DNA of 64,000 nucleotides, taken from the NCBI GenBank assembly GCA_902565895.1, contig CACFGV010000004.1, positions 1 through 64,000 on the forward strand, given 5' to 3'. Below the pieces are notes generated by a model. The model had not been told where the DNA came from. It was given only the letters and a program-made list of their open reading frames with translations, and did not search any database. This document shows, piece by piece, positions 12,483 through 33,051 of the stretch (position 1 is its first letter; every line of letters begins with the position of its first letter). Position numbers and translations under genes: made by a program. Source of the DNA: K189A clade bacterium (GTDB lineage: Bacteria > Pseudomonadota > Gammaproteobacteria > Pseudomonadales > Azotimanducaceae).

Positions 12483-12491
12483 GCGCCCCTT

Positions 12492-12577
12492 GCCCAGGTG
12501 ATGGAATTGGTAGACATGCTAGATTTAGGTTCTAGTGCCTTCGCGGCGTGAGAGTTCGAGTCTCTCTCTGGGCACCA
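12492..12577 (+). tRNA. tRNA-Leu (UAG)
   Basis: Cloverleaf of the long-variable-arm class. The acceptor stem GCCCAGG pairs with the 3' CTGGGC, followed by A and an encoded CCA. D-arm GATGGAATTGGTAGAC, anticodon stem CTAGA/TCTAG with loop TTTAGGT, so anticodon TAG at 12526-12528. T-arm GAGTTCGAGTCTC. The downstream sequence, together with a copy of the 3' half of this tRNA, recurs at about 14.23-14.5 kb. Confidence 0.96.
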
Positions 12578-12626
12578 TCTAACCCGCTGTTTTTATTAGA
12601 CTTTATTTCTTAAAAGGTCGTCTGTT

Positions 12627-12780
12627 TCACATTGCGCTTTCATAGCTCCAAATAGTCGGGCTAGTTTTGTCGTCGCAAACGTCTAAGTGGATGAATCTGT
12701 GGGCATTTGGATTGACGCGAGTACGCTTTACTCCCGCAGCCACGGCAAGCTAAATTGTGTAAAGCGTCCCTTTCCTGTTT
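12627..12780 (-). pseudogene. Peptidase M15 remnant, copy 1 (next to tRNA-Leu)
   Basis: On the minus strand the end of an M15-type (phage D-Ala-D-Ala carboxypeptidase/endolysin-like) protein can be read: VAAGVKRTRVNPNAHRFIHL, then DVCDDKTSPTIWSYESAM and a stop at 12627. HRFIHLDV holds the family's zinc-binding His. An in-frame TAG and small indels interrupt the frame just upstream (about 12760), so this is a decayed fragment. A second, better kept copy lies at 14370-14553 at nearly the same distance from a tRNA-Leu fragment. The rest of the 12578-12938 gap shows no convincing gene. Confidence 0.65.
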
Positions 12781-13352: not shown

Positions 13353-13361
13353 ACCTCCATA

Positions 13362-14135
13362 ATGGGTGATCCCAAATTATTCTTCCGTCAAGCCAAAAGC
13401 TTAGGGCTGATAGTGCTGCTTGCTACGTCGCAATCAAACGTGGCAATCGGGCTGGAGAGCACCCGCCAAACTAAACTGCAAACGGGTCAAGGCACCGCGT
13501 TCAAAATTGCAGATGGAGTGTGGATGACCGCAAAACACGTCTCGAATGGTTGTACCTCAACTCTAGTTGAATTCGGCGCAGACACTCTTCAGGTCAACAA
13601 GGAGATAGCCCACGACTCTGCAGACATGTCTATCTTGATCACGGAGGAGCCAGACTTTGCTTCGTCGCTCGAGATTGTCAAGGCGCTGCCCTCCGAGGGG
13701 GATTTCGGCTTCCTATATGGATATACTGACAACCAAGCGGTTAACATAAAACAAAGCTTTTTGGGCACAAAGACTCTAACGATTCCCATAGGCCGAAGGA
13801 CTTTAGCGACTCAAGAGGTAGCATTTTGGGTCGAGGTAACACGCAGACCTGGCGTTGGGACAGGATCGCCACGTCTGGCAGGCGCGAGCGGATCGCCAAT
13901 TCTTAACTCACAAGGAGGGGTTGTTGGATTGCATATCGCAAGCATTCCGCGGAGAGGCAGAACTTTTAGTATTGCGCCTGCCTCCATAAATGACTTTATT
14001 CAAAGCAAGGACATCAACGCTGATGGGATATTTGCAGAAACGCTTCCTGCGAATGATTCTGCCGCCGCGTGGTTAATTAACAGCGGTCTACTCAGAGATC
14101 AGCTTTCTGTTACCCGGGTCTTCTGCTCACGCTAA
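13362..14135 (+). CDS. Secreted trypsin-like serine protease
   Basis: 257 residues, with a hydrophobic signal segment at about 14-30 and then a chymotrypsin-fold domain. The catalytic triad is visible: His in WMTAKHVSNGC, Asp in AHDSADMSIL and Ser in LAGASGSPIL, with the oxyanion-hole GxSGSP and the following GGVVGLHIAS. There is no PDZ domain. The C-terminal 50 residues are of unknown type. It follows the DUF350 gene by 9 bases. The pair suggests an envelope-acting protease working with a membrane partner; the target is unknown. Codon use is like its neighbours. Confidence 0.82.
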   Translation: MGDPKLFFRQAKSLGLIVLLATSQSNVAIGLESTRQTKLQTGQGTAFKIADGVWMTAKHVSNGCTSTLVEFGADTLQVNKEIAHDSADMSILITEEPDFASSLEIVKALPSEGDFGFLYGYTDNQAVNIKQSFLGTKTLTIPIGRRTLATQEVAFWVEVTRRPGVGTGSPRLAGASGSPILNSQGGVVGLHIASIPRRGRTFSIAPASINDFIQSKDINADGIFAETLPANDSAAAWLINSGLLRDQLSVTRVFCSR

Positions 14136-14228: not shown

Positions 14229-14297
14229 CAGCGTTTAGGTGCGTCAGCCTGCGTGAGCGGGAGCCGTTTTTGTATTCGAGTCTCTCTCTGGGAACCA
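14229..14297 (+). repeat. Decayed copy of the tRNA-Leu(UAG) 3' part (att-like)
   Basis: TTCGAGTCTCTCTCTGGGAACCA at 14275-14297 matches the T-arm, acceptor and CCA of the tRNA at 12492-12577, with one change in the last seven bases. Weaker similarity (GTTTAGGT...GCGTGAGCGGGAG) reaches back to the anticodon region near 14232. The 70 bases after it, up to the M15 remnant, also resemble the sequence after the true tRNA. This is a direct repeat about 1.7 kb from the original. Confidence 0.8.
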
Positions 14298-14369
14298 CCC
14301 AACCCATTGATTTTATAATATTTTTTGCTCTAAAACCTTGTTTGGTCCGCTGGTGGTCCGCATTGCGTT

Positions 14370-14553
14370 TTAATAGCTCCAAATAGTTGGGCTGGTTTTG
14401 TCGTCGCAAACGTCCAAATGAACAAATCTGTGCGCACCTTTCTGGTTGACGTCGATACGCTTAACACCCGCAGCAAGGGCAAGTTCAATCACCTTTAACG
14501 CCCTTTCACCACTGACGGCGATGTCTAAGGCCAGATCTTAAAGAAAGTCATGC
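14370..14553 (-). pseudogene. Peptidase M15 remnant, copy 2
   Basis: Minus-strand reading gives EHDFL, a stop, then DLALDIAVSGERALKVIELA and LAAGVKRIDVNQKGAHRFVH followed by LDVCDDKTSPTIWSY and a stop at 14370. LDIAVSG and FVHLDV hold the Asp and His zinc ligands of phage-type M15 peptidases, and the terminal P-x-IWSY fits that family. The in-frame TAA and the missing N-terminal half make it a pseudogene. It is homologous to copy 1 at 12627-12780. Confidence 0.7.
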
Positions 14554-14778: not shown

Positions 14779-14790
14779 TGTGACTACGTT

Positions 14791-15643: not shown

Positions 15644-15808
15644 ATGCCCCAGCTACAACACATCCTAATTGCAGTCTTAGCCCTCTATTGTTGCTTTATG
15701 GTCTTCAAGGCCAGTGCAAACGCAGGGTTCTTTTTGCTGCCTTTGCTGTTTGTACTGCCACCTTTGGTGTTTAAGAGCAGGAAGAAGGAATCTGGGGAAG
15801 AAGAATGA
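15644..15808 (+). CDS. Small membrane protein, unknown function
   Basis: 54 residues from ATG at 15644 (MPQLQHILIAVLALYCCFMV): two hydrophobic segments separated by a short loop (ASANAG) and a charged tail (KSRKKESGEEE). An in-frame ATG 30 bases upstream is possible but poorly placed. I do not recognise a family. It may be real because the hydrophobic/charged layout is coherent, but it is short. Confidence 0.45.
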   Translation: MPQLQHILIAVLALYCCFMVFKASANAGFFLLPLLFVLPPLVFKSRKKESGEEE

Positions 15809-15908
15809 AACAGCGCAGCGCGCTCAGGAAATTTGGCTAAGTCGTTTTGTTTGGTACCGACAGCACTGATTGGGGACATTCACGATTGCCATAGAAGGAT
15901 CTAAAACG

Positions 15909-16640: not shown

Positions 16641-16658
16641 CGAGGTGGGAGCAAAGTT

Positions 16659-17483: not shown

Positions 17484-17502
17484 GCTTCCTTACCAGTACC
17501 AG

Positions 17503-17517
17503 GTGGGTAAAACCCAC
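17503..17517 (+). terminator. Short hairpin after the DUF2059-like gene
   Basis: Perfect GTGGGT / ACCCAC stem with an AAA loop, 20 bases after the stop codon at 17483. It lacks a T-run, so it is at best a weak or Rho-assisted end or a 3'-end stabiliser. Confidence 0.3.
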
Positions 17518-17518
17518 T

Positions 17519-17601
17519 CTCAAGTACCCCACCAGAACCAATAACAACTAGACAACCCAGGCTGCTCCCCCCGGCTCCAATTGAAGCGCCCCACCCCCAG
17601 G
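17519..17601. repeat. Direct repeat, left copy (flanks tcyP and the methyltransferase gene)
   Basis: About 83 bases, roughly 80% identical to 20288-20370. Shared cores are CCAGAACCAATAACAAC, GACAACCCAG and GCCCCACCCC. Both copies are in the same orientation, about 2.77 kb apart. Read on the minus strand, both give a similar peptide (WGASIGAGGSSLG here, WGTSIGAGGSCLG there), faintly like a hexapeptide-repeat acyltransferase. Confidence 0.8.
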
Positions 17602-17736
17602 ACACCCCCGCCAGCAATCCTGAGTTAGGCTAGGCCTTTGCTTACAACTAAAAGTGGCGCGTGTTAACGCATTTATTCCCTTCGCACCGGCCTAGGCTGG
17701 TGCTAGGGTTCACCGATTTGGGAAGGGAGATCACCT

Positions 17737-19086
17737 ATGTCCTTTGCAGCCATTGCCAACTTGGTGGTGTTTGCCCTCCTTGCGGGGGTGCTATTCAATT
17801 TCCGCAAACCGCGCTTATCCCTTGGCCGGCAAATCCTTCTGGGCTTGCTCCTAGGGGCAGGCTACGGCCTTGCCCTGCAGTTCCTCTACGGCAGCGGCGA
17901 TGCCGCCGTGAAAGAAACCCTCACCTGGACCAACGTGGTAGCCTCGGGCTACATAAGCTTGCTGAAGATGGTCATCATGCCGCTCGTACTGGTGATGATG
18001 ATTGCCGCCGTTGTGCGCATGCGCGAGGTGGCGGATCTTGGACTCATCGGCAGCAGCGTGGTGGGCATCCTCGTGGGCACCACTGCCGTGGCCGCGCTCG
18101 TCGGCATCTTCGTAAGCAATTTCTTCGGCCTCAGCGCCGACGCGATCACCCAGGGTGCACGGGAGCTTGAGCGGGCGGCATCCCTCACATCTCGCTATGA
18201 AAACGTGGCCAATTTGGGCCTGGCCGACACGCTGGTGCGCTTCATTCCTAGCAATATTTTCTCGGACCTCACCGGCGCCCGCCCCACCTCCATCATCGCC
18301 GTGGTGATCTTCGGCATCCTCTTTGGCCTCGCTGCCCTAAGGGTGGCCAAGGAAGATCCAGCCCGGGGGGAGAAGCTTCGGGAAGCGGTGCTAACCCTGC
18401 AGGCCATCATCATGCGGCTGGTGCAAATGATAATGGCCCTGACCCCCTACGGAATCCTCGCCCTCATGACCCGGGTGGTCGCAGGCTCTAATGCCCAGGA
18501 CATATGGAACCTCGTGGAATTCGTGGGCGCCTCCTACGTGGCTATCGCAATCATGTTTGCCATTCACGCCGTCCTGCTGAGGCTCGCTGGCGTCAACGTG
18601 CGTTCTTATTTCAAAACGGTCTGGCCCGTATTGACCTTTGCCTTCACGTCCCGGAGCTCCGCCGCCACCATTCCCCTGAACGTGGAGACACAGGTTGACG
18701 GGCTCAAGGTGCCGGAACCCATCGCCAACCTGTCAGCCACCTTCGGCGCCACCATCGGGCAAAACGGCTGCGCCGGCATTTACCCTGCCATGCTCGCGGT
18801 AATGATCGCCCCCTCCATGAGCATCGATCCCTTGAGCTTCAGTTTCATCGTGCCCCTCGTTGCCATCGTCGCCATCAGTTCCTTCGGTATTGCTGGGGTA
18901 GGGGGCGGCGCGACGTTTGCAGCGCTGGTGGTTCTCCCAGCCATGGGCTTTCCCGTCACCGTGGCGGCGGTGTTGATTTCCGTGGAACCGCTCATCGATA
19001 TGGCGCGCACGGCCCTCAACGTAAACGGCGCTATGACCGCCGGCGTGCTCACGGGGCGCTGGCTGCGGAAGGGCGCAAAGGCTTAA
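17737..19086 (+). CDS. tcyP: L-cystine / dicarboxylate-amino acid:cation symporter, TcyP type
   Basis: 449 residues of the DAACS family, with about eight membrane helices and re-entrant loops. TFAFTSRSSAATIPLNVE is the serine-rich hairpin, and ATIGQNGCAGIYPAMLAVMI with GIAGVGGGATFAALVVLPAM and SVEPLIDMARTALNVNG matches the cystine importer TcyP/YdjN rather than GltP. A good GGAAGGGAG site precedes the ATG. The gene is clearly more GC-rich than its neighbours, with runs of C/G third positions, and is bounded by a direct-repeat pair (17519, 20288), so recent acquisition is likely. Confidence 0.85.
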   Translation: MSFAAIANLVVFALLAGVLFNFRKPRLSLGRQILLGLLLGAGYGLALQFLYGSGDAAVKETLTWTNVVASGYISLLKMVIMPLVLVMMIAAVVRMREVADLGLIGSSVVGILVGTTAVAALVGIFVSNFFGLSADAITQGARELERAASLTSRYENVANLGLADTLVRFIPSNIFSDLTGARPTSIIAVVIFGILFGLAALRVAKEDPARGEKLREAVLTLQAIIMRLVQMIMALTPYGILALMTRVVAGSNAQDIWNLVEFVGASYVAIAIMFAIHAVLLRLAGVNVRSYFKTVWPVLTFAFTSRSSAATIPLNVETQVDGLKVPEPIANLSATFGATIGQNGCAGIYPAMLAVMIAPSMSIDPLSFSFIVPLVAIVAISSFGIAGVGGGATFAALVVLPAMGFPVTVAAVLISVEPLIDMARTALNVNGAMTAGVLTGRWLRKGAKA

Positions 19087-19303
19087 GTAAGGCCTGAGGG
19101 ACTAGGGGCCCGGCCGGCTGCCTTCCGACAGGTACTGTTCGCATGGATTGGACAACACCTGATATTGCCAAGTAGCGTGAAATCTAAGAGTTGTATGATA
19201 AGTGCTTGGTGTTGTGGGTTGTCATTTGAAGCCCCATTAAAATAACTATTGATGGTATTTGCGTCCGCAATAGCAATGTATCGTTAAAACGTGCAATGGA
19301 GGC

Positions 19304-20254
19304 ATGGGAGCGATGAGCAATTCAATTTTTGGAAAAGACGGCACGGCTCAGGGAGTGGCCAAACAGCGTTTGATAGAAACACTGGCTAAATCCGACAAAC
19401 GCGTCATAAACGATCCTTACGCAGACAGATTTGTGATGGGCGCTGGATTTATCAAGCTGATGGGTCATAAGTTTAGCGCCTGGTTTGGTAAAAAATTGGC
19501 ACCCGGCTTACACGAACATCTCATTGCACGCACTCGCTTCATCGATGATCTGATCGAAAAGGCCGCTAATAGTGGAGCCGAGCAGTACGTGATTCTGGGC
19601 GCGGGATACGACTTGCGGGCGCACCGACTTGATCTTCCGTCTTCACTGAGAATTTTTGAGGTAGATCAGGCTGAGGTGCAGGCTAGAAAGCGCTCTAAGT
19701 TGCCAGAAAACATTACCAACGCAGCAAATGTTACTTATGTGACTGTAGATTTCACTCACCAGTCGTTAGCCGAACAACTTACAGCTGCAGGTTTTGATAA
19801 AAGCAAACCCACTATTTTCACTCTCGAGGGTGTGTCCCAGTACATCACTAAAGAGGCTGTCAGTTCGACAATCGAAGAACTGGCAACGCTTATTCAAACA
19901 ACCTCCGCAACCTTTTTCATATCTTATGTTGATGAATTGCTCAATAAAGATCCTGAAGCATGCTTCGGCACGGGTTACCCAAACGCAGCACGACGCGCGG
20001 AAACGATAAAAATCTTATCAGCAAAGGTAGGCGAGCCCTGGATTTCATTTTACACGGCTGAAGAAATTGCCAGCCTACTCTCACGAAATGGATTTTCGGT
20101 AACGGAAAACGTTACCGTAGAGGATCTCAATTCCTTGTATTTCACCCCAGTGAGCAGAACTCTCCGGGAAAACCAAATGTTCAAGCTTGAGCATTTCGTG
20201 GTCGCAAAATCGCAAAATAACCAGGCTTTCACACAGCCAATGGCGACAGAGTGA
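19304..20254 (+). CDS. Class I SAM-dependent methyltransferase (leucine carboxyl methyltransferase-like, TIGR00027 type)
   Basis: 316 residues. The N-terminal ARTRFIDDLIEKAANSGAEQ and the SAM-binding YVILGAGYDLRAHRL are the signature of the Ppm/TIGR00027 family. FEVDQAEVQARKRSKL provides the acidic ribose contact, and FTLEGVSQYI is the third motif. The substrate is unknown; relatives act on small acids or in polyketide-type pathways. ATG at 19304 or, three codons later, 19313. It stands alone, separated by 217 bases from tcyP, and its composition differs visibly from tcyP. Confidence 0.82.
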   Translation: MGAMSNSIFGKDGTAQGVAKQRLIETLAKSDKRVINDPYADRFVMGAGFIKLMGHKFSAWFGKKLAPGLHEHLIARTRFIDDLIEKAANSGAEQYVILGAGYDLRAHRLDLPSSLRIFEVDQAEVQARKRSKLPENITNAANVTYVTVDFTHQSLAEQLTAAGFDKSKPTIFTLEGVSQYITKEAVSSTIEELATLIQTTSATFFISYVDELLNKDPEACFGTGYPNAARRAETIKILSAKVGEPWISFYTAEEIASLLSRNGFSVTENVTVEDLNSLYFTPVSRTLRENQMFKLEHFVVAKSQNNQAFTQPMATE

Positions 20255-20287
20255 TTTACCGCTGCAGACCTCACTAAATTCCTTGCA

Positions 20288-20370
20288 CTCAAGTATCTCT
20301 CCAGAACCAATAACAACCGGACAACCCAGACAGCTACCCCCGGCCCCTATTGAAGTGCCCCACCCCAGAC
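20288..20370. repeat. Direct repeat, right copy
   Basis: Partner of 17519-17601 in the same orientation. It begins 33 bases after the methyltransferase stop, much as the left copy begins 35 bases after the DUF2059-like gene stop. Confidence 0.8.
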
Positions 20371-20483
20371 TAAAAGCCAGCATTTGCACGCTGCGCAGTG
20401 TTTTTGTCAAGAATCTTGTCAATAATCTGATATAGACTGCCTGTAGACGCAGCTATAGCAACGATTCCATAAGGGCTTAACCT

Positions 20484-20510
20484 AGTTCAGGTGCCCTCTC
20501 TGGACACCAT
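20484..20510 (+). repeat. Degenerate tRNA-Leu 3' end
   Basis: GTTCAGGTGCCCTCTCTGGACACCAT resembles the T-arm to CCA of tRNA-Leu(UAG): CTCTCTGGaCACCAT differs by one base over the last 15. No upstream tRNA body is recognisable. It is the third tRNA-Leu-like end in the accessory region that is not part of an intact tRNA. Confidence 0.55.
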
Positions 20511-20876
20511 TTGACCTCTCAACTTATCTTGACTGCCACAAACTCAGGCGACCCAAAACTCGACAATCTCTTGCTTGATCGTCAAGTTATTGCGCGTTGT
20601 TCAAGCTCATTGCAGTGGGTGATGTATGACCCGGGAAGTTCGAGAAACCTGGTCGCGCGACGAGCTGTGACCATCGACATTCCAACAGGTTCTCTTCAAA
20701 AGAACCGATCTTTCGCACCATGAAGCGTGTTTGATAACAGCACATGGTTGCCGAATTGCCGGTCGTTCGGCGCAGGGTCGTGGGCCGACGGTACTTGGAG
20801 TCGTGATCAGCTGCCGAAAGGTTCTACAGCCGCAGACAACAACGACCCTGCGGATTCTTTTTTCCAAACGCCAACA
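20511..20876. other. Gap without a secure gene; possible decayed coding scrap
   Basis: No convincing full gene is seen. A plus-strand frame from GTG at 20727 to a stop at 20882 reads SFGAGSWADGTWSRDQLPKG and on to DPADSFFQTPTL, which looks coding in character but has no start region or recognised family. A similar ETWSRDEL can be read near 20646 in another frame, hinting at a duplicated, frameshifted gene. An inverted repeat CCGCAG/CTGCGG followed by ATTCTTTTTT (20830-20863) could be a terminator but overlaps this frame. Confidence 0.3.
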
Positions 20877-21119
20877 CTATGAGGAAGGCACGGAGTTGAT
20901 CGTTTGCCGATGGTTTGCCGTTGCCCAACGCTTACACGCAGCCCAGGTCGGCCCTGATCCAATCACGTAACGGTGATCTGCGTGATGGTTGTAGCAGGCT
21001 AACGCGCGCTCACGAATCTCTTGTTGCCAAAGCGCGTCGATACCCGATCCTTGGGTTGCGCACCCAACGTTGAGACTAAGCAACAAAAGAGAGGCGGCTA
21101 TTTTATAGATGGATTTCAT
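20877..21119 (-). CDS. Small lipoprotein, unknown function
   Basis: 80 residues with a bacterial lipoprotein signal: MKSIYKIAASLLLLSLNVGC, the lipobox Cys being residue 20. The mature part is short, with three more Cys or aromatic-rich spots (ACYNHHADHRYV, WAACKRWA). No family is recognised. The signal is clear enough to call it a real gene. It lies divergent from the DUF4149 gene. Confidence 0.6.
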   Translation of the reverse strand: MKSIYKIAASLLLLSLNVGCATQGSGIDALWQQEIRERALACYNHHADHRYVIGSGPTWAACKRWATANHRQTINSVPSS

Positions 21120-21285
21120 CCGGGGTCCTTATTTTACGTTGCGAGTGTCAGACCACTCTCCCCGGCTGACGTGGCTACTATGTTTTAAGGTCAGTGATGA
21201 TTTGGTCAACTCTAGGATCACTGACATTGACAAAAAATTGATGAATTTAATCTCAGTCTTCGCCTAAAGATTTTGGCGCTGAACG

Positions 21286-21762
21286 ATGTACCACCTCACC
21301 GAAGCCTACTTAATGATCTCGTTACTGACGCTGCTCAGCGCCTTTCTTGGTGCTTTGATATTCTCAGCAGCCTTTGTTGCCCAGGCTGCTGTACGGTTAC
21401 TCTCCGCCGAAGATGCCGCACTGCTACTTCGTAGCTTTTGGGCGACTTATCACCGCTTTGCCGTAATCGGCGCCCTAACCCTGACCGCGATAGGCACATT
21501 GGCAGCTCCGTTCTCGGCGCTACCGGCGATATATGTGGTGTTGCTGACTTCGCTTGGTGCGTTGATGACACTTTGTTTTTTTTCAGGACTGCTATTAATC
21601 CCAAGAATTAACCACGCATCAGATCATCAGGACGCAGCGCGCTTCCAAACCTTGCATCGACTGGACATCGCTTTGGTGGCAGCAGGGATGGTGATCGGAT
21701 TGCTGCTCATTGTTGCCTTAGCTTATGTACTCCCTGGACACTTCACGTTTTGGCAACACTGA
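21286..21762 (+). CDS. DUF4149-like four-helix membrane protein
   Basis: 158 residues with four hydrophobic helices. ALIFSAAFVAQAAVRLLSAEDAALLLRSFWATYHRFAVIGA follows the pattern of DUF4149 proteins, in which a helix is followed by a charged loop and a Y-x-RF motif. The last polar loop, RINHASDHQDAARFQTLHRLD, also fits. Role unknown. It lies 110 bases upstream of tRNA-Leu(UAA). Confidence 0.65.
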   Translation: MYHLTEAYLMISLLTLLSAFLGALIFSAAFVAQAAVRLLSAEDAALLLRSFWATYHRFAVIGALTLTAIGTLAAPFSALPAIYVVLLTSLGALMTLCFFSGLLLIPRINHASDHQDAARFQTLHRLDIALVAAGMVIGLLLIVALAYVLPGHFTFWQH

Positions 21763-21813
21763 TCGCGAGTAGTTGAATCTTTACAACACATTATTGCCCG
21801 CTAGGAAACTTGC

Positions 21814-21819
21814 TATACT
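21814..21819 (+). promoter_or_regulatory. Extended -10 element of tRNA-Leu(UAA)
   Basis: TGCTATACT gives an extended -10 (TATACT at 21814-21819) with a GC-rich discriminator after it. A -35-like TATTGC lies 16 bases upstream. The tRNA starts at 21872. Confidence 0.5.
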
Positions 21820-21871
21820 CGCCCGCGCTGAATACAACACCCAATGTGAACTGGTTCGCGCTTCAAAACCT

Positions 21872-21958
21872 GCCCGGGTGGTGAAATTGGTAGACACAAG
21901 GGACTTAAAATCCCTCGGCAGCAATGCCGTGCCGGTTCGAGTCCGGCTCCGGGCACCA
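21872..21958 (+). tRNA. tRNA-Leu (UAA)
   Basis: Acceptor GCCCGGG pairs with CTCCGGGC, then A and CCA. D-arm GGTGAAATTGGTAGAC, anticodon stem AGGGA/TCCCT with loop CTTAAAA, so anticodon TAA at 21906-21908. Long variable arm, T-arm CCGGTTCGAGTCCGG. Two degraded copies of its 3' part lie downstream, at 23460-23506 and 25041-25087. Confidence 0.96.
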
Positions 21959-22128
21959 CATTATCTCGCTAGGTTCTGTGCATTCCATTAGTCCCCAGCA
22001 ATACCACCCTACAAAGTGGATCGTTCCTTCATTGATGTTCGGCCAATTCTGGGCCAAAGTTGAAACCGTTCGGCCACAGCTCTCGCTGCCATAAAGTCAA
22101 CAAGAAACAAGCAAAGCGTTCTAAATCC

Positions 22129-23259
22129 ATGAGGATACTTCAGCGGACTATCATCGCACTTTTAATGTTAGTCACGTCATACGGCGGTCTTGCTGCGATG
22201 GCCAGTGGGGACATCGCGAAATTTAATGAAGATTACGCAGAGATACAGGAACTGATATCTAATGGTCAGCTACGCGAAGCCAGTGAAGGCGCATTAGCAG
22301 CGGTGCCTTTGGCCGAGGTCGTTTTTGATTCAGACCTGGAAAATCTAGCTAATTATTATTACCTAGTTGCGCAGCTCCAAGCCGCCCAGCCCTGGTCAGG
22401 AAATATGCTTGAAGTCTTACCCATTGCCGAAAAAGCAGTAGCAATCGCCTCAAACTTGTATGGAAGCAACAGCGAAAAGGCGTTGCGAGCTCGAGGCTTT
22501 ACGATACGAATACTGTCCTACGCTGTAACGAGAACCTCAGCACCGAAGGAACGCCAGCGCTTATTGTCATTACTAGGCGATCAAGAGAAGGATGCTCTAG
22601 AAGAAATCCGAAAAGTCGAAACCGCAGCCGCTGCAGACCTTTATCTTTCTCTGAGCGTTTCTGCTCGAACAATACGTAACGCAAAAAAATACTCAGACGC
22701 GGCGTCTCAGATTTTCGCATCTATTTTCGGAGCCAAGAGCAAAGAAGCCATACAAACAAGAGTAGCTGGCACTAGGTTCCTAAGCAGGAATAAGCAAATT
22801 GAGGAACTTTTGTCGATATTAGATTCCATCGGTCAGGAGCCGAATGTTTTGCTTTTAAAAGCTGGTATCCATCAAAAACTAGCAGTCTTATACCTAAAAG
22901 GCGGTGATGAGGACGCATCGATGCAGCACAATATCGCCGCTAGTGAAGCCTTCGACTTTCTTGGGCAAGCTAAAGCAGTTATTGCTTCAGAGTATTTGCC
23001 GGTGTTGAAACCAAATCCAAAATACCCTCGAAGAGCTCAAAAACGTGGCATAGAGGGCTATGTACTGCTCGAATACGTGGTGGACAAGACCGGCAGAGTT
23101 GTTAACCCTAGAGTAATCAAAGCTAAACCACCCGGAACCTTCAACAAAGCCGCTATAGAGGCAACACGGCTATACCGATACCTTCCGGCGATTAAAGAAG
23201 GGCGGCCAATCGCAGTAAGCGGCGTAAAGACACGCATAACATTTGAAATGGCGGATTGA
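22129..23259 (+). CDS. Secreted protein with C-terminal TonB domain
   Basis: 376 residues from ATG at 22129 (the open frame starts at 22060, but MRILQRTIIALLMLVTSYGG is a good signal peptide). The middle is helical and TPR-like in character (about 40-290). The last 90 residues are a TonB C-terminal domain: NPKYPRRAQKRGIEGYVLLE, with a family ending in GVKTRITFEMAD. The TonB protein at 45611-46210 has almost the same C-terminal domain, including the identical last 12 residues. There is no proline-rich linker or N-terminal anchor as in true TonB, so it may bind a TonB-dependent receptor or partner from the periplasm. It is the cargo of the first tRNA-Leu(UAA)-bounded unit. Confidence 0.78.
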   Translation: MRILQRTIIALLMLVTSYGGLAAMASGDIAKFNEDYAEIQELISNGQLREASEGALAAVPLAEVVFDSDLENLANYYYLVAQLQAAQPWSGNMLEVLPIAEKAVAIASNLYGSNSEKALRARGFTIRILSYAVTRTSAPKERQRLLSLLGDQEKDALEEIRKVETAAAADLYLSLSVSARTIRNAKKYSDAASQIFASIFGAKSKEAIQTRVAGTRFLSRNKQIEELLSILDSIGQEPNVLLLKAGIHQKLAVLYLKGGDEDASMQHNIAASEAFDFLGQAKAVIASEYLPVLKPNPKYPRRAQKRGIEGYVLLEYVVDKTGRVVNPRVIKAKPPGTFNKAAIEATRLYRYLPAIKEGRPIAVSGVKTRITFEMAD

Positions 23260-23459
23260 CTTTCGACTCCAAAATCCAGCGCAGATAACCACTTTCGCCC
23301 TAAAGGCCTAAATGGTTTGGGCCAATTTTGAACCACAGATCCTAGTTAACCCGGATTTCATCTAGCACGTAACGAACTTATCAGACGCAAAAACCCAGTG
23401 TTTTGGGCTATCGTTGCTAGATGTGTTTTAGGTCCACTGCTCAAACCTTTGCTTAGCGC

Positions 23460-23506
23460 CCCTCGGCAGCATTGCTGGGCCAATTCGAGTCCGGCTCCGG
23501 GCACCA
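23460..23506 (+). repeat. Decayed tRNA-Leu(UAA) 3' copy 1 (att-like)
   Basis: CCTCGGCAGCATTGCTGGGC then CAATTCGAGTCCGGCTCCGG and GCACCA match the variable arm, T-arm, acceptor and CCA of the tRNA at 21872-21958 with a few changes. It ends 1548 bases after the true tRNA end. A gene fragment in frame begins directly after the CCA. Confidence 0.88.
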
Positions 23507-23507
23507 C

Positions 23508-23624
23508 TTTCGTTACAACGAACAGGATGAAGTAATAGGCAGGGCGCAGGCGATCTACTTTTTAAATAACGATGAAGGCCGTTGGAGATTCTTCTACATG
23601 CAGTTCTTCATGCTTGAGTCTTAG
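23508..23624 (+). pseudogene. Gene 3' fragment abutting the tRNA copy
   Basis: Open frame FRYNEQDEVIGRAQAIYFLN followed by NDEGRWRFFYMQFFMLES and a stop at 23624. It has no start codon; the frame runs straight out of the tRNA-like CCA at 23506. The pattern (I-x-x-A-x-x-x-Y-F-L-x-x-x-x-G-x-W) resembles the end of SnoaL-like/NTF2-fold proteins and the neighbouring secreted protein (STSKVFYTLSMTDEGWKLVG). It looks like a gene cut by recombination exactly at the tRNA-like site. Confidence 0.6.
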
Positions 23625-23659
23625 GTAAGATTAAACCTACAAATCAACAGGATCTCGTA

Positions 23660-24112
23660 ATGAAAATAAAGGCTGTGCTTCTAACTGGGTTGGCTTTCTT
23701 CTCTTCTGCTGCTTTTGCAGGTCATCATGAAAAATCATCTGTTGAAGGCTTCATAGCAGATTACTTTGAAACCTTTAACTCTATGACATTGGAAACTAAC
23801 CCAGAGCAAAGCATCAAATTCCCTGTTGTCTTCATAAACGACGGACAAGTAAGGGTCATAGAAGATGCAACTGAAAAGGTCTTTGACTACAAAGTCATCA
23901 AGGCGACAGGTTGGGCCTACTCAAAGATGATCAAAACTACCGTCCTTGATGAAGGTGAGAACTCTGCAGTGGTGCTTGTAGATTTCACTCGCCATAAAGC
24001 AGATGACTCAATTATCAGTACTTCGAAGGTCTTCTACACCTTGAGCATGACTGACGAAGGTTGGAAGCTTGTAGGTGCTTCTATTCCTGGCGGAATCACT
24101 TTGGTGGAGTAG
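23660..24112 (+). CDS. Secreted SnoaL/NTF2-like protein of unknown function
   Basis: 150 residues with a signal peptide (MKIKAVLLTGLAFFSSAAFA). The mature N-terminus would be GHHEKSSVEGF. The body has an NTF2-like rhythm: an N-terminal helix FIADYFETFNSM, then strands with VVLVDFTRHKADDS and VFYTLSMTDEGWKLVGASIP. No catalytic residues are recognised. The same GHHEK start follows the signal peptide of the fasciclin protein at 25699. A long inverted repeat copy begins 4 bases after its stop. Confidence 0.65.
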   Translation: MKIKAVLLTGLAFFSSAAFAGHHEKSSVEGFIADYFETFNSMTLETNPEQSIKFPVVFINDGQVRVIEDATEKVFDYKVIKATGWAYSKMIKTTVLDEGENSAVVLVDFTRHKADDSIISTSKVFYTLSMTDEGWKLVGASIPGGITLVE

Positions 24113-24115
24113 ACA

Positions 24116-24184
24116 GCCTCAAAAGCCCTCAAAATGTCCGACCATCCCTATATATATCCACCTAGGGGGGTATGGTGACCTGCC
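24116..24184 (+). repeat. Long inverted repeat, right copy
   Basis: About 69 bases matching the reverse complement of 14712-14778. Within the copy, ACCATCCCTA and TAGGGGGGTATGGT can pair imperfectly, so a hairpin is possible. There is no T-run after it. Confidence 0.9.
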
Positions 24185-24235
24185 CCGCTCCTTTTGATCT
24201 CCTATACTCAATTCATCTTATACAGGAGAAGGATT

Positions 24236-24724
24236 ATGAATTGGGACGCATTGGGCGCGCTTGCTGAGCTGCTAGGAGCCATAGCGGTATTTCTTACACT
24301 GGCTTACCTGACTGTACAGGTTAGGCAGAATTCAAAGGCTTTGGAGCTTCAGAACAAGTTTTCTGCAGCACAAATCATGCAAGCGAGGACTGATACCGTA
24401 ATGGGCTTTATCAGCGTCTTACTCTCATCAGAGGAAAACGTAAAAGCGCAGATGGTTGCCTCAAGTGTTTCCGACGTAAGCGCTATGAACGAACAGGATC
24501 CTTCTATTCGTGTAAGAGCTAATTCAATACTTAGCGGTTCTCGTTCACTCTACGAAAAAGTGTTTTTTCAATACAAGGAAGGTTTTTTAACAGACGATTT
24601 CTATACGGGCCTAGAGCCAAATATAGCGGTTTACGCTGAAAGCTGGTTAAAACTAGGAACTGCGATGTCTTCCGAATTTAAAGCAGAAGTAGTGCGTATC
24701 CATGAAAAGACAAAAGCAGCCTAG
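24236..24724 (+). CDS. Single-pass membrane protein, unknown family
   Basis: 162 residues from ATG at 24236, chosen because CAGGAGAAGGATT stands directly before it. The N-terminus MNWDALGALAELLGAIAVFL then TLAYLTVQVRQNSKALE is one membrane helix followed by a polar helical cytoplasmic part. This start (MNWxAxGAxxExxGAIAVxxTLxYLxxQxRQN) recurs in many short proteins of marine bacteria, but I know of no function. It stands in the second tRNA-bounded unit. Confidence 0.65.
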   Translation: MNWDALGALAELLGAIAVFLTLAYLTVQVRQNSKALELQNKFSAAQIMQARTDTVMGFISVLLSSEENVKAQMVASSVSDVSAMNEQDPSIRVRANSILSGSRSLYEKVFFQYKEGFLTDDFYTGLEPNIAVYAESWLKLGTAMSSEFKAEVVRIHEKTKAA

Positions 24725-24775
24725 CTTGATCTCCACCATCAAGCCTGACAATCAGTCACTGATTCAAAATATTGG

Positions 24776-24844
24776 GCAAAAGAAGGGCGGCCAATTGCAT
24801 TGAACGGGGTAAAAACCCGTATAACGTTTGAACTTGCAGATTGA
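24776..24844 (+). pseudogene. Remnant of a second TonB C-terminal-domain gene
   Basis: The frame reads AKEGRPIALNGVKTRITFEL then AD and a stop at 24844. This is nearly the same as the end of the gene at 22129-23259 (KEGRPIAVSGVKTRITFEMAD). The sequence after the stop (TTGACGTTCG, then a diverged stretch to the next tRNA copy) also parallels the sequence after 23259. The upstream part of the gene is missing. Confidence 0.85.
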
Positions 24845-25040
24845 CGTTCGCGTCCAAAACCTCGCATTGATGATTACTATTGCCTTAAGCGCCCAGATAG
24901 TTTGAGCCAATCTTGGACTAATATTCTTGTTATCCCGCATGCAGTCGGAACGTAGAGCCCTTGTTGGACGGCGACCGCATGTGTTTTAGGGTTTTTGTCC
25001 TGTGTATCGAGGGTGTATCGCTCAAAACTTCAATTAATGC

Positions 25041-25087
25041 GCCTTGGCAAAACTGTCATACCGCTTCGAGCCGGACTCCGGGCGCTA
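25041..25087 (+). repeat. Decayed tRNA-Leu(UAA) 3' copy 2 (att-like)
   Basis: GCCTTGGCAAAACTGTCATACC then GCTTCGAGCCGGACTCCGGGCG aligns with the variable arm, T-arm and acceptor of tRNA-Leu(UAA) and with copy 1, with more changes; CACCA has become CGCTA. It ends 1581 bases after copy 1. Confidence 0.75.
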
Positions 25088-25698
25088 CTCTAACAGATTA
25101 ATTCTTATCTAATGAAACTTACTACTTAGAAAAGGTGTTAGATTTTTGGAGCTCTTCGTTGGGTTGATGTTGGATTAACTCAGGAGGTTGTTGTCGGGCA
25201 ATGCTTACGCCTACTGGGGACAACGGATCTTCTTATCATCAAGAAAATCGGACACTTAGGGCAAGTACTCTTTCTGAAATACGCTCACTAACCCAGAATA
25301 CCATCACCAATAACATCAACGTTTCGGAACTAAGGATGACTTAGCACACAGCCAAAAAATAAACTGAAAGAGGCGAATGCGGGGCGAAAGTGCACAGTTG
25401 CATGAGACCTAGCAATTGGCTTGTCAGTGAAGAAATAACCAGAAGCGTTCGTACAACTATCCATATGTCCGCCTGAGCAGTAGGGATCTGTGATTTGCAT
25501 TTTGCTGCTACCGGTGGCTATGCCGTCATAAACGCGATTTATTCAGACCGAATTCCGCCAGTTTATGTGGTCGCTAATAGAAGCGAACAAATCTTGTCGA
25601 AGTTCTAAAGATTTTGATGACCTAATGCATGCATCCTTTCAATGAAGCTTTGACTTATCACGCAGCAACCTGGCGCTGTACTAATTTGGATAACACTC
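25088..25698. other. Gap of about 600 bases without a convincing gene
   Basis: No intact gene is seen. A 47-codon plus-strand frame (ATG at 25201, QENRTLRASTLSEIRSL) and a minus-strand stretch around 25360-25550 (KMQITDPYCSGGHMDSC) have coding-like composition but no start, family or neighbour to support them. Most likely decayed DNA after the last tRNA-Leu copy. Confidence 0.4.
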
Positions 25699-26202
25699 AT
25701 GAATAAGATCAAAATATTACTGGTTTCCCTTTTAACAGTGTCTTCAGCGTTCCTTGCTAGCTCAGCATTAGCCGGCCATCACGAAAAAGGCGAGATGAAG
25801 CCAGCAACCGTCGTAGAACTAGCAGTAGGGGCTGAGGAAACTTCCACGCTAGTCGCAGCAGTGAAGGCCGCCGGTTTAGTAGAAACGTTGTCAGGTGCGG
25901 GCCCGTTCACTGTTTTGGCTCCTACCAATGATGCCTTCGCGAAGCTCCCCGAAGGTGTTTTGGAAGGTCTGTTAGCTGATCCTGAGGCGCTGGCTGGGGT
26001 TTTGAAAGCTCATGTTGTTGCCGCCAATGCAAAGGCAGAGACAGTAGTAACTTTGAATCAGGTTGAAACTTTGAATGGCACCTATCCTGTGACAGTAGCG
26101 GATGGCGTTGTCTCCATTGGAGGCGCGACGGTACTCGCTACCGATCTCGTGGCCGGGAATGGTGTAGTTCATCTTATCGACACGGTCATTCTTCCAGAAT
26201 AG
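25699..26202 (+). CDS. Secreted fasciclin (FAS1) domain protein
   Basis: 167 residues: a signal peptide (to about residue 25, SALA) and then one FAS1 domain. The H1 motif PFTVLAPTNDAFAKLP and the later AHVV and GNGVVHLIDTVILPE are standard. FAS1 domains mediate adhesion or matrix interactions. The mature N-terminus, GHHEKGEM, is the same kind as that of the protein at 23660. The gene is alone, with no partner on either side. Confidence 0.9.
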   Translation: MNKIKILLVSLLTVSSAFLASSALAGHHEKGEMKPATVVELAVGAEETSTLVAAVKAAGLVETLSGAGPFTVLAPTNDAFAKLPEGVLEGLLADPEALAGVLKAHVVAANAKAETVVTLNQVETLNGTYPVTVADGVVSIGGATVLATDLVAGNGVVHLIDTVILPE

Positions 26203-26356
26203 GAGATCCTAGTCCTCTTTGACAGGTGCCCCTTTTGAGTCAATCAATTGGGGCGATCCTCGACCAATCAGTACAGTTATGGCGAAAGGCGCGAGTCAGA
26301 TCCAACGCTTAATCTCCAGCCCCTTTCTTTTACGAGCTAGACGAAAACTGCCCGCC

Positions 26357-26836
26357 TTAGACATCTTTGTCGTTGCCGGATTCCTTTAACTTCATAAGGC
26401 TGTGACGGTCTTTCAAAGACATAAGATACGCAGCACAGCTTAGGACAAGAATCGCTGACGCTTCCGCCACCAAGACTAAAGCCTCACTCTCTTTACTCTG
26501 CATCACTATAAGGCGGCAAAGAGCGGTTATGGCAATTATGATAGGGAGCGTGACGGGTATCCTGCTGGTCGAGTAAAAGGCACCTATCATTCCTATTATC
26601 TCAACGTAGATAAATAGTAGGAACAAATCTGGTAAACCCACTTTTCCAGCTAGATACATGTCGTTAAGAGCTTGGAAGGTAGCGACTAGGGTCAACAAAC
26701 CTATCAGCGCCAAGAGAGCCTTTTCGCTAGCTATCGTCGTCCAATGCAACCTACGATTTAAAGAGTTTCGCTCCAGTAGGTTCTCTAACAGATTCCCTGA
26801 CTTATTCGTCTTCTCGTGACTGTCTTTCTTCTCCAT
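26357..26836 (-). CDS. psiE: Phosphate-starvation-inducible PsiE family protein
   Basis: 159 residues from ATG at 26836 (GGGGTCGAT precedes it; a longer frame starts at 26854). After a polar N-terminus come four helices. LFLLFIYVEIIGMIGAFY and RIPVTLPIIIAITALCRLIV are the PsiE signature. In E. coli the gene is under PhoB and cAMP-CRP control; its function is unknown. The presence of psiE 15 kb from the Pho-like cluster fits a phosphate theme, but I see no clear Pho box upstream. Confidence 0.8.
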   Translation of the reverse strand: MEKKDSHEKTNKSGNLLENLLERNSLNRRLHWTTIASEKALLALIGLLTLVATFQALNDMYLAGKVGLPDLFLLFIYVEIIGMIGAFYSTSRIPVTLPIIIAITALCRLIVMQSKESEALVLVAEASAILVLSCAAYLMSLKDRHSLMKLKESGNDKDV

Positions 26837-26854
26837 ATCGACCCCATTCCACAA

Positions 26855-27175
26855 GTCCGTAGTGATGCTACGACCTTACCCCAAAAACTGAGCCATGAGT
26901 GGAATGGGATTCCCCGATAAGGTAGCCCCAAGATCGGTGCCCATTGAAGGGAAAACGATTTATCGGCGAACAGCATTTACGAAGACTTACAGCCGGGAAT
27001 TCCAATCCGAACAGACGATCAGCTACGAGCATACTTTGTTGGTTTGAGTGAAAAACCCATTCGGCAACAACCGTCGTGCGGGCCCTAAAATAACAACAGC
27101 AACATTAATGCTCTGGAAAGACACAGCCAGGTTAAGGTAAGCGGTAAAGAAGCCCTTTATCCAATATTAGTGGAG
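26855..27175. other. Gap of about 320 bases, nothing recognised
   Basis: The stretch between psiE and the GST-like gene contains no reading frame with a family match on either strand, and no clear promoter or hairpin. Confidence 0.4.
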
Positions 27176-27943
27176 CTAATCTTGGACTCCTGATACAACC
27201 TCCGTAAAGGGGAATCCCCCTAAACGATCGCTCACTCTGTTTAGATAAGCGGGAAAGACAGGATAGCCCTGTGCAAGATCCGCAAGCCATGTTTGCGGAA
27301 CATGAAAGAGAATTGAGGCAAGCATCGAAGCGACAGAGAAGTCATAAACAGTGATGTTTTGACCTAACAAAAAGTCACCTTTCTCAAGCTGATTAGCAAG
27401 GGTTAACAAATCCGTCGACGCTTCAGCATCTCTATCCGCTGGGCTTAGGCTACCTACGCCGTGGAATTTCGACAAAGAAGTTTGCTTCGACACCGCGTAT
27501 ATAGATGCCAGCTGTTTAATGAACTTAGGCCAGCGCGGGAGGAAACAATCGATAATCTCCTCTCTTGATTCAGGTGTCATCCACTTAGACCAGACCATGT
27601 ACCAGTAGAGGTTTTTTTCAGTGAGTCGTTTTAGCGCCGTCCCAAGGATCAGTTCATCGGGGCTCAAACCCTCCAACAAGTCACTTTTATGCATTCTAAT
27701 GAGATGCTCGATAATGATGTCCGATTCACCTAATTCAAAATCGTCGATCTTAATCCATGGGACCTTGCCACTCGGGGATGACTTGCTGATCTTAAGAGGC
27801 ATGATGAATTCTCTTTTATATTCAGCATTAAGGTATTTGAGAGCCATCTCTACTTTGACCACAAACGGGCTCAGTTGTCTCAATCCACCTGCCGGGGGCA
27901 TTCCGTAAAGCGTGATCACAGCGCTGTTGTTTTCCTTGATCAT
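27176..27943 (-). CDS. GST-like protein, paralogue of the gene at 14791
   Basis: 255 residues. The N-terminal domain is VITLYGMPPAGGLRQLSPFV with KVEMALKYLNAEY and SPSGKVPWIKI. The C-terminal domain ends ITVYDFSVASMLASILFHVP. The two motifs and the spacing match the 243-residue protein at 14791-15522, so both belong to the FAX/metaxin-like GST branch, but they are clearly diverged. Substrate unknown. It stands alone near the right edge of the accessory region. Confidence 0.75.
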   Translation of the reverse strand: MIKENNSAVITLYGMPPAGGLRQLSPFVVKVEMALKYLNAEYKREFIMPLKISKSSPSGKVPWIKIDDFELGESDIIIEHLIRMHKSDLLEGLSPDELILGTALKRLTEKNLYWYMVWSKWMTPESREEIIDCFLPRWPKFIKQLASIYAVSKQTSLSKFHGVGSLSPADRDAEASTDLLTLANQLEKGDFLLGQNITVYDFSVASMLASILFHVPQTWLADLAQGYPVFPAYLNRVSDRLGGFPFTEVVSGVQD

Positions 27944-28115
27944 AAATCGGCAACCTACCCTCTATTTTCAACTGACTTCTACGGCAAACTCCGGTCGTAG
28001 AGGCGAGTATTGCGACCGGCCTGGGTAGCCGATTCCAGTGCCGGTCACCAAAGTCACTCGTAGCTATAAATCATAGGCTGTTACAGTCCAAACAACTTAT
28101 CTCTGTCACTAGCGT

Positions 28116-29708
28116 CTATTTCACATGTGCTGTTAAGAAGTCTGCGTTCTTTTCAGCAACCATGATCGTTGCTGCATTGGTATTGCCGGAAACAACATAC
28201 GGCATTACCGACGCATCCACGACGGAAAGTCCTTCTAGGCCTTTAACTAATAAATTTTCGTCTACAACTTTGCCAATGCTGCAGGTGCTGGTTGGGTGGT
28301 AAACAGTACCTGCCTCCTCGCGTATGTAATCAAGCAACGCATCGTCACTCAAATTACCTTTCTCCTCTGCCGGAGAGAGCCGTGAGGTAATGCTGTCTGC
28401 TAAAGCTTCGCTCTCGAAAACTCGCAGAAGTAGTTTCATGCCATCAATCATCGTGCGGCGGTCGAGTTCAGTGCTCAGATAATTGGCCCTTATCTCCGGA
28501 TGGTCGCGGTGATTAGAAGTGGTAATGTGAATTGAGCCCCGAGATTCGGGGCGGCTTTGATTAACGACAGCGCTCATCGCTGGCTGAGCCATTGCGCGAA
28601 TTTTGCCGGCGTTGTTGTACAGAGTCGCACCCGACGCAAAATGGACCTGAATGTCAGGCGCTTCCAGACCGTCCCTGGTGTACCAGAATGCACCGATTGG
28701 CGCGGACCCGGTGGTGAGCGGTCCTTTACGCGCGAAAAACCACTTTAGCGCTGCCGGGATGAGTCGTGCGCCGCTGACTTCACGATTGATCGACAGATCG
28801 GCACGGGTGCCATATACGACCTTGCACAAGAGATGATCTTGGAGATGTTCGCCGACGTCAGGTAAGTGGTGATGTACCTGAATACCGAGCGCACTCAATC
28901 GGTCGGCGTCGCCAACACCTGAGAGCTCCAGCAGCTGCGGCGACCCGATCGCGCCGCAACTAAGAATCACATGTCGCGCCCTGATTGTTTCAGATCGACC
29001 CGCCCTGTCTGTTTCAACTCCAACTGCTTTATTCTGCTCGAAAATAATGCGCTTTGTCTGAACCTTGACTCTTACCTCAAGATTACTGCGGCCACGAGCG
29101 GGCTTTAGATAGGCACTGGACGTACTCCATCTGCGTCCGTTTTTCTGCGTAAATTGATAATGGCCACAACCCGCCTGATCGACTCCATTGAAATCAGCAG
29201 TTCTAGGGATGCCCTGCTCCTCCATAGCGTCAAGAAAGGTTTCCTGAATTGGCCGTTTGTCGACAACGTCCTGCACATATAACGGTCCGTCCGCACCATG
29301 AGACTCGTTAACGTGAGTTTGCTGTCGCTCAGCCTTAATAAAGTAAGGCAGAACCTCTTCCCACGACCAGCCCTTTGCGCCTGCTTGCTCCCAAGCCGCA
29401 AAATCAAGCGGCACCCCGCGAATGTAAATCATGCCGTTTATCGCACTGGAGCCTCCGAGGCCCTTGCCACGTGGCCAATAGATTCGGCGATTATTGAGTT
29501 CAGCTTCTGGTTCGGTCTCGTAAGACCAATCAAATTTCTTGTTCTTGAACGTCGCGGCCCAGCCTGCGGGCACATGCAATAATGGTGACTTATCGCCGCC
29601 GCCGGCCTCCAAAAGACAAACTCGGGTGTGCGGATTCGCACTCAGGCGATTTGCTAAGACGCAACCTGCCGAGCCTGCGCCAACAATAACGTAGTCGTAT
29701 TCTTGCAT
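28116..29708 (-). CDS. GMC-family FAD oxidoreductase (choline/alcohol dehydrogenase type)
   Basis: 530 residues. The N-terminal FAD-binding motif is YVIVGAGSAGCVLANRLS, followed by GMC signature 1 (RGKGLGGSSAINGMIYIRG) and signature 2 (GAIGSPQLLELSGVG). The C-terminal catalytic His is in YHPTSTCSIG and the closing motif is VSGNTNAATIMVAEKNAD. Such enzymes oxidise alcohols to aldehydes; substrates range from choline to long-chain or sugar alcohols, and nothing here selects one. BetB or BetT is not adjacent, so choline is not supported. Confidence 0.88.
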   Translation of the reverse strand: MQEYDYVIVGAGSAGCVLANRLSANPHTRVCLLEAGGGDKSPLLHVPAGWAATFKNKKFDWSYETEPEAELNNRRIYWPRGKGLGGSSAINGMIYIRGVPLDFAAWEQAGAKGWSWEEVLPYFIKAERQQTHVNESHGADGPLYVQDVVDKRPIQETFLDAMEEQGIPRTADFNGVDQAGCGHYQFTQKNGRRWSTSSAYLKPARGRSNLEVRVKVQTKRIIFEQNKAVGVETDRAGRSETIRARHVILSCGAIGSPQLLELSGVGDADRLSALGIQVHHHLPDVGEHLQDHLLCKVVYGTRADLSINREVSGARLIPAALKWFFARKGPLTTGSAPIGAFWYTRDGLEAPDIQVHFASGATLYNNAGKIRAMAQPAMSAVVNQSRPESRGSIHITTSNHRDHPEIRANYLSTELDRRTMIDGMKLLLRVFESEALADSITSRLSPAEEKGNLSDDALLDYIREEAGTVYHPTSTCSIGKVVDENLLVKGLEGLSVVDASVMPYVVSGNTNAATIMVAEKNADFLTAHVK

Positions 29709-29943
29709 GACTTATTCCTGTTAATAAGCAACCCAACATCCGACGCTGGTATCTGTTTTCACAAATACAGCACCATCAAATACGATATTCACACTGGCGA
29801 GCGACAGCAAGTCTTCGCTCAATAAGATTTATGAGCCTGCATAAAGCACGATATTGCTTGTCATACTTTCCAGAACTAGCTGTTCCATTCCCCGCAAATC
29901 CAGCGCACTGGCGTGCCGCGCCATCGCGCCTGTGAGGGCTAGA

Positions 29944-33051
<3,108 letters not shown>

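Follow-up and report, generated by a model that had tools for sequence, protein, structure and literature searches.

Tandem units closed by decayed tRNA-Leu(UAA) tails in a K189A clade bacterium: a probable array of successive integrations

Introduction

Tandem, integrase-less elements flanked by attachment (att) sites have been described in Streptococcus salivarius as cis-mobilizable elements (CIMEs) of 1.2 to 13 kb, together with microCIMEs, which are gene-less, 130 to 220 bp long and arranged in tandem accretion (PMC7563491). In aquatic bacteria, cassettes or islands located at tRNA genes and closed by a repeat of the tRNA 3′ end have been reported for Methylophilaceae (PMC10872708), Actinomarinales (PMC7771536) and Alteromonas (PMC4119200). 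Such repeats include 20 nt of tRNA-Lys and 52 nt of a Leu-tRNA, the latter closing an Alteromonas island specific to one strain (PMC4119200), and the Methylophilaceae cassettes and islands range from 330 bp to 42 kb (PMC10872708). Here we analyzed a 64,000-nt stretch of DNA (the window) from a K189A clade bacterium, corresponding to positions 1-64000 of the 90-kb contig C4 in a 2.02-Mb draft genome (G000; 87 contigs, 68.8% complete). At 21872-25087, an intact tRNA-Leu(UAA) gene is followed by two tandem units, each closed by a decayed copy of the tRNA 3′ part. Judged from its sequence, the region is probably a decayed tandem array that arose as one site-specific integration followed another at the 3′ end of this gene.

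As in integrative elements at tRNA 3′ ends generally, the insert is closed by a direct repeat on the same strand, and the site is empty or differently filled in relatives (G015; G004 and others). No integrase, however, was found in the element; two relatives have one at this tRNA. The tRNA-Leu(UAA) units (UAA units) resemble CIMEs in being att-flanked, integrase-less, cargo-bearing and arrayed in tandem at a single gene's 3′ end, with att sites on both sides and no recombination module. They differ in that CIMEs derive from integrative and conjugative or integrative and mobilizable elements and were described in another phylum, whereas no parent of the UAA units was found and no helper element stands in tandem with them. 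The microCIMEs are similar to units spaced ~108 bp apart at tRNA-Leu(CAA) of the same draft genome. The UAA units are also comparable to additive flexible genomic islands, being tandem cassettes of varying content added at a tRNA gene and closed by repeats of the tRNA end, although the relatives compared here belong to the same genus and are not conspecific strains. Unlike those islands, the UAA units are decayed and small and have a common homologous right end. Tycheposons of Prochlorococcus are likewise tRNA-bounded and marine (PMC10872708 and general knowledge), and tyrosine recombinases lie at tRNA genes in relatives of the window's genome. However, tycheposons carry a tyrosine recombinase and span 4-200 kb as cited in PMC10872708, whereas the UAA units are ~1.5 kb long and lack one, and so do not match that description; a first-pass annotation of the window had named tycheposons as an example of tRNA-bounded islands.

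CIMEs and additive flexible genomic islands are thus closer published parallels than tycheposons, and the kind of element is already known. With no integrase left, the units now resemble cis-mobilizable (CIME-like) or additive-island cassettes. What is mildly unusual is their small size and that the pattern recurs at several tRNA genes within a single genome. The locus illustrates the gene-by-gene opening of a tRNA cluster in an uncultured marine lineage, and a worn tRNA tail combined with a conserved cassette end provides a scar for finding integrase-less cassettes that integrase-based searches would miss.

Tandem tRNA copies and shared right end

The attachment gene of the array, tRNA-Leu(UAA) at 21872..21958, was identified by ARAGORN and Rfam (RF00005, 55.6 bits) and is the sole full-length match at such identity in the draft genome, the next being tRNA-Leu(CAA) with 82%. 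The proximal unit 1 (21959..23506) consists of a gene with a TonB C-terminal domain (TonB_C gene), a right end and a tRNA 3′ copy. The distal unit 2 (23507..25087) contains two different cargo genes, a remnant of the right end and a more decayed tRNA 3′ copy. All of these features are on the forward (+) strand. The copy in unit 1 (23460..23506) repeats the last 47 nt of the tRNA with 42/47 identical positions, and that in unit 2 (25041..25087) with 33/47; over 51 nt the identities are 88% and 69%. The copies end at 23506 and 25087 in steps of 1548 and 1581 bases, exactly as first annotated. Their last 47 nt carry 5 and 14 changes, respectively, with zero in common. Both alignments start near the same tRNA position and cover only the 3′ part, excluding the 5′ half.

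The copy at 23460 was found by BLAST with an E value of ~1e-12. The one at 25041 is weak by BLAST alone (E 0.10); its local alignment score was 40, while 1000 dinucleotide shuffles reached no more than 30, and in a gapless scan 19 of its 25 final bases matched, where 20 plain shuffles of a 24-kb stretch gave 15-17. No further UAA copy exceeded the shuffles in 25095-28116, 12578-21871 or 28116-36677.

The similarity of the units extends beyond the tRNA tails. In the self-alignment suggested as a check by the first-pass annotation, 23194-23508 and 24779-25089 aligned colinearly and significantly over 315 nt with 66% identity. The shared right end (23194..23459 in unit 1, +) comprises the last 22 codons of the TonB_C gene and a spacer of ~200 nt, after which the tRNA tail follows. 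The spacer of unit 2 (24845..25040, +) is homologous to 23260-23459 of unit 1, and the two by themselves scored 84 against a shuffle maximum of 30, which 0 of 1000 dinucleotide shuffles reached. The similarity is far weaker in the tRNA-side half of the spacers, which scored 31 against a shuffle maximum of 30 (0/1000). The spacer similarity had been noted before, and its GCTCAAA motif indeed pairs between the units; however, TGTGTTTTAGG of unit 2 pairs with the neighbouring GTGTTTTGGGC of unit 1. No similarity was found between the left ends of units 1 and 2. A possible resemblance of the unit 1 left end to the spacers was rejected because its scores were reached by 37 and 317 of 500 shuffles.

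Chance similarity, or an ancient duplication of the tRNA gene without mobility, is a very improbable explanation of these repeats. The weakness of the 25041 copy in BLAST and of the tRNA-side spacer half would agree with it, but it is opposed by the colinear 315-nt right end, by the restriction of both alignments to the tRNA 3′ part with a near-identical start and by the reversed and shuffled controls of the genome-wide tail search described below.

Under the favoured reading of successive integrations, a tyrosine recombinase would have crossed a circular element with the 3′ half of the tRNA gene. Each insertion would restore an intact tRNA on the left and shift the old 3′ end rightward, so that the newest unit would adjoin the tRNA and the oldest copy would lie farthest off. 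A first element would thus have been inserted and then a second, related one with a common right end, including the TonB_C gene, and different cargo. The lesser decay of the nearer tail (5/47) than of the farther one (14/47) agrees with the proposed insertion order.

Cargo genes of the units

The TonB_C gene of unit 1 (22129..23259, +) encodes 376 residues with the TonB C-terminal domain at residues 295-373 (Pfam E 2.8e-19), in agreement with its first annotation as a full gene. Unit 2 has a gene at 23660..24112 (+) for a 150-aa protein of the NTF2-like family DUF6841 (Pfam E 2.8e-6, 28.3 bits versus a cut-off of 27) and a gene at 24236..24724 (+) for a 162-aa protein that matched nothing in Pfam, PADLOC or PHROGs at the thresholds applied. 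Its TonB_C remnant retains the last 22 codons with the stop at 24779..24844 (+); the remnant had been recognized before with a start at 24776, whereas the alignment begins at 24779. Among the three UAA cargo proteins, only that of 23660-24112 matched a PADLOC model (PDC-M43A, E 0.0016). In the library scans, the open reading frames (ORFs) of the units gave family matches unrelated to conjugation, or none; conjugation genes were not specifically searched.

The remnant differs from the full TonB_C gene by 12 changes, a small sample, and these are mostly silent, with proportions of synonymous and non-synonymous differences (pS and pN) of 0.55 and 0.07. The reading frame may thus have been maintained through most of the divergence and truncated late. 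Small as the sample is, a frame that was long kept fits better with two related elements than with a fragment decaying from the outset.

This bears on another history, in which a single integration occurred, recombination between the flanking tRNA repeats duplicated the unit and other genes later took the place of the left part in the second copy. The near-equal lengths of the units (1548 and 1581 bp) and their common right end are what such a duplication would leave, and two 47-nt direct repeats could, from general knowledge, permit unequal crossing over. We nevertheless consider this history unlikely. The left ends are unrelated, so most of unit 2 would have to be replacement; the changes in the TonB_C remnant are mostly silent; and the two UAA tails have no change in common.

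Across 57 relatives and 32 loci, the TonB_C protein had matches extending well past the TonB domain in one genome only (G034), in two places and with 34% identity. These two homologues, on G034:C54 (L061) and C63 (L062), are paralogous, and one is cut by a contig end. Each is followed by an ORF of the HGGxSTGPKT type; that of L061 has PHROG matches, including one to a terminase small subunit (E 0.0068). Neither the integrase nor the TonB protein had a relative on viral contigs. We also considered whether the UAA array shares cargo families with an integrase island at tRNA-Pro(GGG) of the same draft genome, but the TonB_C domain alone was in common (41%), and the protein of 24236-24724 had no meaningful BLASTP similarity to that island.

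The tRNA-Leu(UAA) locus in relatives

In G015, the gene upstream of the array (63%) and tRNA-Leu(UAA) are followed by genes for a GMC oxidoreductase (88%), a beta-galactosidase, an SDR and a GST, without any units. A single GST-like ORF, starting 325 bp past the tRNA, stands between the tRNA and the conserved genes. G004 has the nearest GMC oxidoreductase (91%). There, an identical tRNA is followed by a different ORF, and the contig stops 405 bp past the tRNA; the GMC gene is on another contig, beside a counterpart of the GST-like ORF of G015 (77%). Three genes of the window at 25699-27943 had no tblastn match in the examined stretches of G015 and G004, and thus the difference from G015 reaches past unit 2. 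At 19 loci, we compared the first ORF of >=80 aa downstream of tRNA-Leu(UAA); apart from the integrases of G034 and G021, it had no counterpart in the other loci, and one of the 19 has no ORF of this size. In the comparison that the first-pass annotation proposed, relatives have sites without units (G015) or with other ORFs (G004 and others), and the block was not syntenic in any relative's locus that was read.

The distance between tRNA-Leu(UAG) and tRNA-Leu(UAA) is 14-153 bp in seven genus members, 1.7-5.6 kb in four others and 9.3 kb in the window's genome. There, tRNA-Cys is a further 14.7 kb off, and the three tRNAs are spread over 24 kb (12492-36751). In G019, tRNA-Leu(UAG), tRNA-Leu(UAA) and tRNA-Cys all lie inside 0.5 kb.

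Integrases of the genus

No match to the tyrosine integrase family PF00589 was found at E <= 0.001 on the 90-kb contig C4, which upholds the earlier description of the array as integrase-free; the search did not extend to serine recombinases. In G034, a 396-aa tyrosine integrase (Phage_integrase 1.4e-15, DUF6538 5.5e-15) starts 34 nt past tRNA-Leu(UAA), and G021 has a relative with 69% identity, likewise 34 nt past this tRNA. A tyrosine recombinase, which the first-pass annotation proposed to seek in relatives, is present at this tRNA in two of them; no complete element with an integrase and both ends was seen there. Matches to the integrase family occurred in 14 of 40 genus genomes, which we merged to 20 loci. 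A gene or remnant starts 30-35 nt past the 3′ end of a tRNA in 14 of them, the tRNAs being Leu (UAA, UAG, CAA and CAG), Phe (GAA) and Thr (CGU). Twelve of these distances were measured directly, and those of G024:C256 and G021:C49 were taken from tRNA positions.

The integrase-first tRNA islands of the genus (G034, G021, G016, G004 and others) use attachment tRNAs of the arrays in the window's genome, Leu(UAA) and Leu(UAG). They differ from the units there in having an integrase or its remnant ~34 nt past the tRNA, and the left ends differ as judged by eye. The end of contig G034:C51 (L063) is, by eye, an inverted repeat of the integrase start stretch (1-32 versus ~1825-1860), which may be an amplification or assembly artefact.

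A variant of the favoured reading, differing in the state of the elements at entry, derives the units by deletion from larger elements that had an integrase, so that they would not have been small from the start. We rate it at slightly less than an even chance. Integrases of the relatives are often broken, with a stop within the match at 13 of 20 loci, and CIMEs are defined as deletion derivatives (PMC7563491). On the other side, the UAA units retain open cargo genes with ordinary spacing, and a probably young cassette at tRNA-Ser(GCU), described below, is already integrase-less.

A second array at tRNA-Leu(UAG)

A similar array follows its own attachment gene, tRNA-Leu(UAG), at 12492..12577 (+). 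The left end of its unit 1 (12578..12774, +) is homologous to 14298-14507, with 75% identity over 236 aligned positions including the tRNA tail. The unit contains an ORF of 137 aa at 12939-13352, which matched a PHROG of unknown function (E 3.6e-19), and a gene for a trypsin-like peptidase at 13362..14135 (+). It is followed by a copy of the last 23 nt of tRNA-Leu(UAG) at 14275..14297 (+; 22/23) and by the left end of a second unit at 14298..14507 (+). A homologous left end of ~200 nt thus follows both the tRNA and its tail copy, and the unit measures 1.7 kb. We found no right end for the second UAG unit. In the 39 other genus genomes, the tRNA tail (<=3 nt past it) was all that the UAG left end matched.

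Since the UAA units share right ends and the UAG units share left ends, the elements appear to have conserved ends and changing cargo. Different elements with conserved ends suit this pattern better than duplication of one unit with later replacement, because the UAG array shares the left ends instead.

A third UAG copy at ~20484-20510 was not counted; it scored 29 compared to 27 in 100 plain shuffles, but its gapless match of 16/25 was within the shuffle range of 15-17. The trypsin-like protein matched PADLOC RT-Protease and other defence models (best E 6.6e-8), which we took as domain similarity.

Tail copies at other tRNA genes of the draft genome

ARAGORN found 21 tRNA genes in the window and 15 stretches around Rfam tRNA matches, and Rfam also gave 21 in the whole draft. 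The last 50 nt of each served as a query (E <= 1e-3). The room downstream was uneven, from 0.5 kb for Leu(CAG) and 1.0 kb for Glu up to >40 kb for the window's two Leu genes. Five of the 21 genes had tail copies in their own locus: Leu(UAA), Leu(UAG), Leu(CAA) (two copies), Ser(GCU) and Val(GAC), the last being the weakest (E 7e-4). The UAA copy at 25041 falls below the threshold and is thus not among the six matches. All six same-locus matches were on the same strand and downstream of the tRNA; reversed queries gave none, and 420 shuffled queries gave one, at a different locus. The occurrence of the pattern at other tRNA genes, the absence of units in G015 and the tRNA-adjacent integrases of relatives all support the proposal, made before this analysis, that elements with a shared right end entered the tRNA 3′ end one after another. 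The alternative offered with it, tandem duplication and refilling, is less likely.

The cassette at tRNA-Ser(GCU), L182 (G000:C1) 8942-13618, spans 4.6 kb. It has a perfect 42-nt repeat 4.5 kb downstream, contains no integrase and carries two long genes, one for a 754-aa protein with thrombospondin type 3 repeats and one for a 538-aa protein. The perfect repeat indicates that the cassette is probably young, and as an integrase-less cassette with two long genes it argues against deletion from larger elements. At tRNA-Leu(CAA), L183 (G000:C5) 9040-9247, two tandem units lie ~108 bp apart, each with a hairpin-like stretch and a decayed tail.

The draft genome has five PF00589 matches at E <= 0.001, on C5, C8, C20 and C33. 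One Phage_integrase match is beside tRNA-Ser(GGA), and another is 176 nt after tRNA-Pro(GGG), whose island shows no tail copy within 9.9 kb. Over its last 30 nt, tRNA-Ser(GGA) shows no difference from the repeat of the Ser(GCU) cassette, and integrase help in trans for this cassette is therefore conceivable. Extending this idea, we speculate, with considerable doubt, that the lineage hosts tiny (0.1-4.6 kb) integrase-less gene cassettes whose ends are conserved and which move between tRNA 3′ ends via integrases supplied in trans, for example by the one beside tRNA-Ser(GGA). If true, such cassettes would be a tRNA-based counterpart of integron cassettes.

Several observations weigh against successive integrations as the origin of the UAA array. 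The draft genome is incomplete (69%) and divided into 87 contigs. The two Leu(CAA) copies have changes in common, which resembles a single decayed unit duplicated; units of this same genome that look duplicated in place favour, to that extent, a duplication at tRNA-Leu(UAA) also. The order of ages is not uniform: tRNA-Ser(GCU) has a 13-nt tail match (E 0.36) 100 bp downstream, closer to it than the perfect copy. Among the relatives, the UAA tail copy was absent from all 10 genus members with at least 2 kb downstream, where the matches above the shuffles were tRNA-Cys genes; nine more had <2 kb after tRNA-Leu(UAA). In 57 relatives, nothing but the tRNA and the ends of TonB genes matched the right end of the units. 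A tail search with 52 tRNA genes gave only two further own-locus copies, one of them upstream. These searches indicate that tandem tail copies mark this genome more than the sampled genus. As for the integrases, 6 of the 20 loci were not shown at 30-35 nt from a tRNA: G025:C1 lies 74 nt from tRNA-Arg (extrapolated), four have no nearby tRNA and G025:C18 was not read. The G034-type family was unmatched in the window's genome at E <= 1e-10. The G034 and G021 contigs end 1.9 kb and 1.0 kb past tRNA-Leu(UAA), with no complete integrase-bearing element seen there, and ten integrase contigs show no copy of their own tRNA tails, so that no complete parent element was found.

Other repeats and tail matches

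Tail matches were also seen at single loci of relatives. On G008:C19 (L114), at 10937-11110, tRNA-Cys has a 28-nt 3′ copy (96%) 72 bp downstream, and on G059:C1 (L115), at 4616-4654, a 39-nt match (85%) to the tRNA-Leu(UAG) tail lies upstream of that tRNA. In G060, two contig ends carry the tRNA-Leu(UAG) tail, C55:28297-28322 and C6 (L202) 4129-4214, one of them with the full tRNA, which reflects either overlapping contigs or a tail copy.

In 12-37 kb, Rfam at gathering cut-offs found nothing beyond the three tRNAs. When the whole window was compared with itself (E <= 1e-3), six repeat pairs emerged. The tRNA arrays account for three of them (the first UAA copy, the UAA right ends, and UAG 12555-12774 versus 14275-14507). 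Of the remaining pairs, one joins the TonB_C gene to a TonB-like gene at ~45.7 kb, and two are short repeats that lie outside the main ORFs. One of the latter, of ~72 nt and 90% identity, is mutually inverted (14712-14781, -; 24113-24184, +), with one copy in each tRNA array region and exactly these two copies in the draft genome. The other is a 79-nt direct repeat with 86% identity (17519-17597 and 20288-20366).

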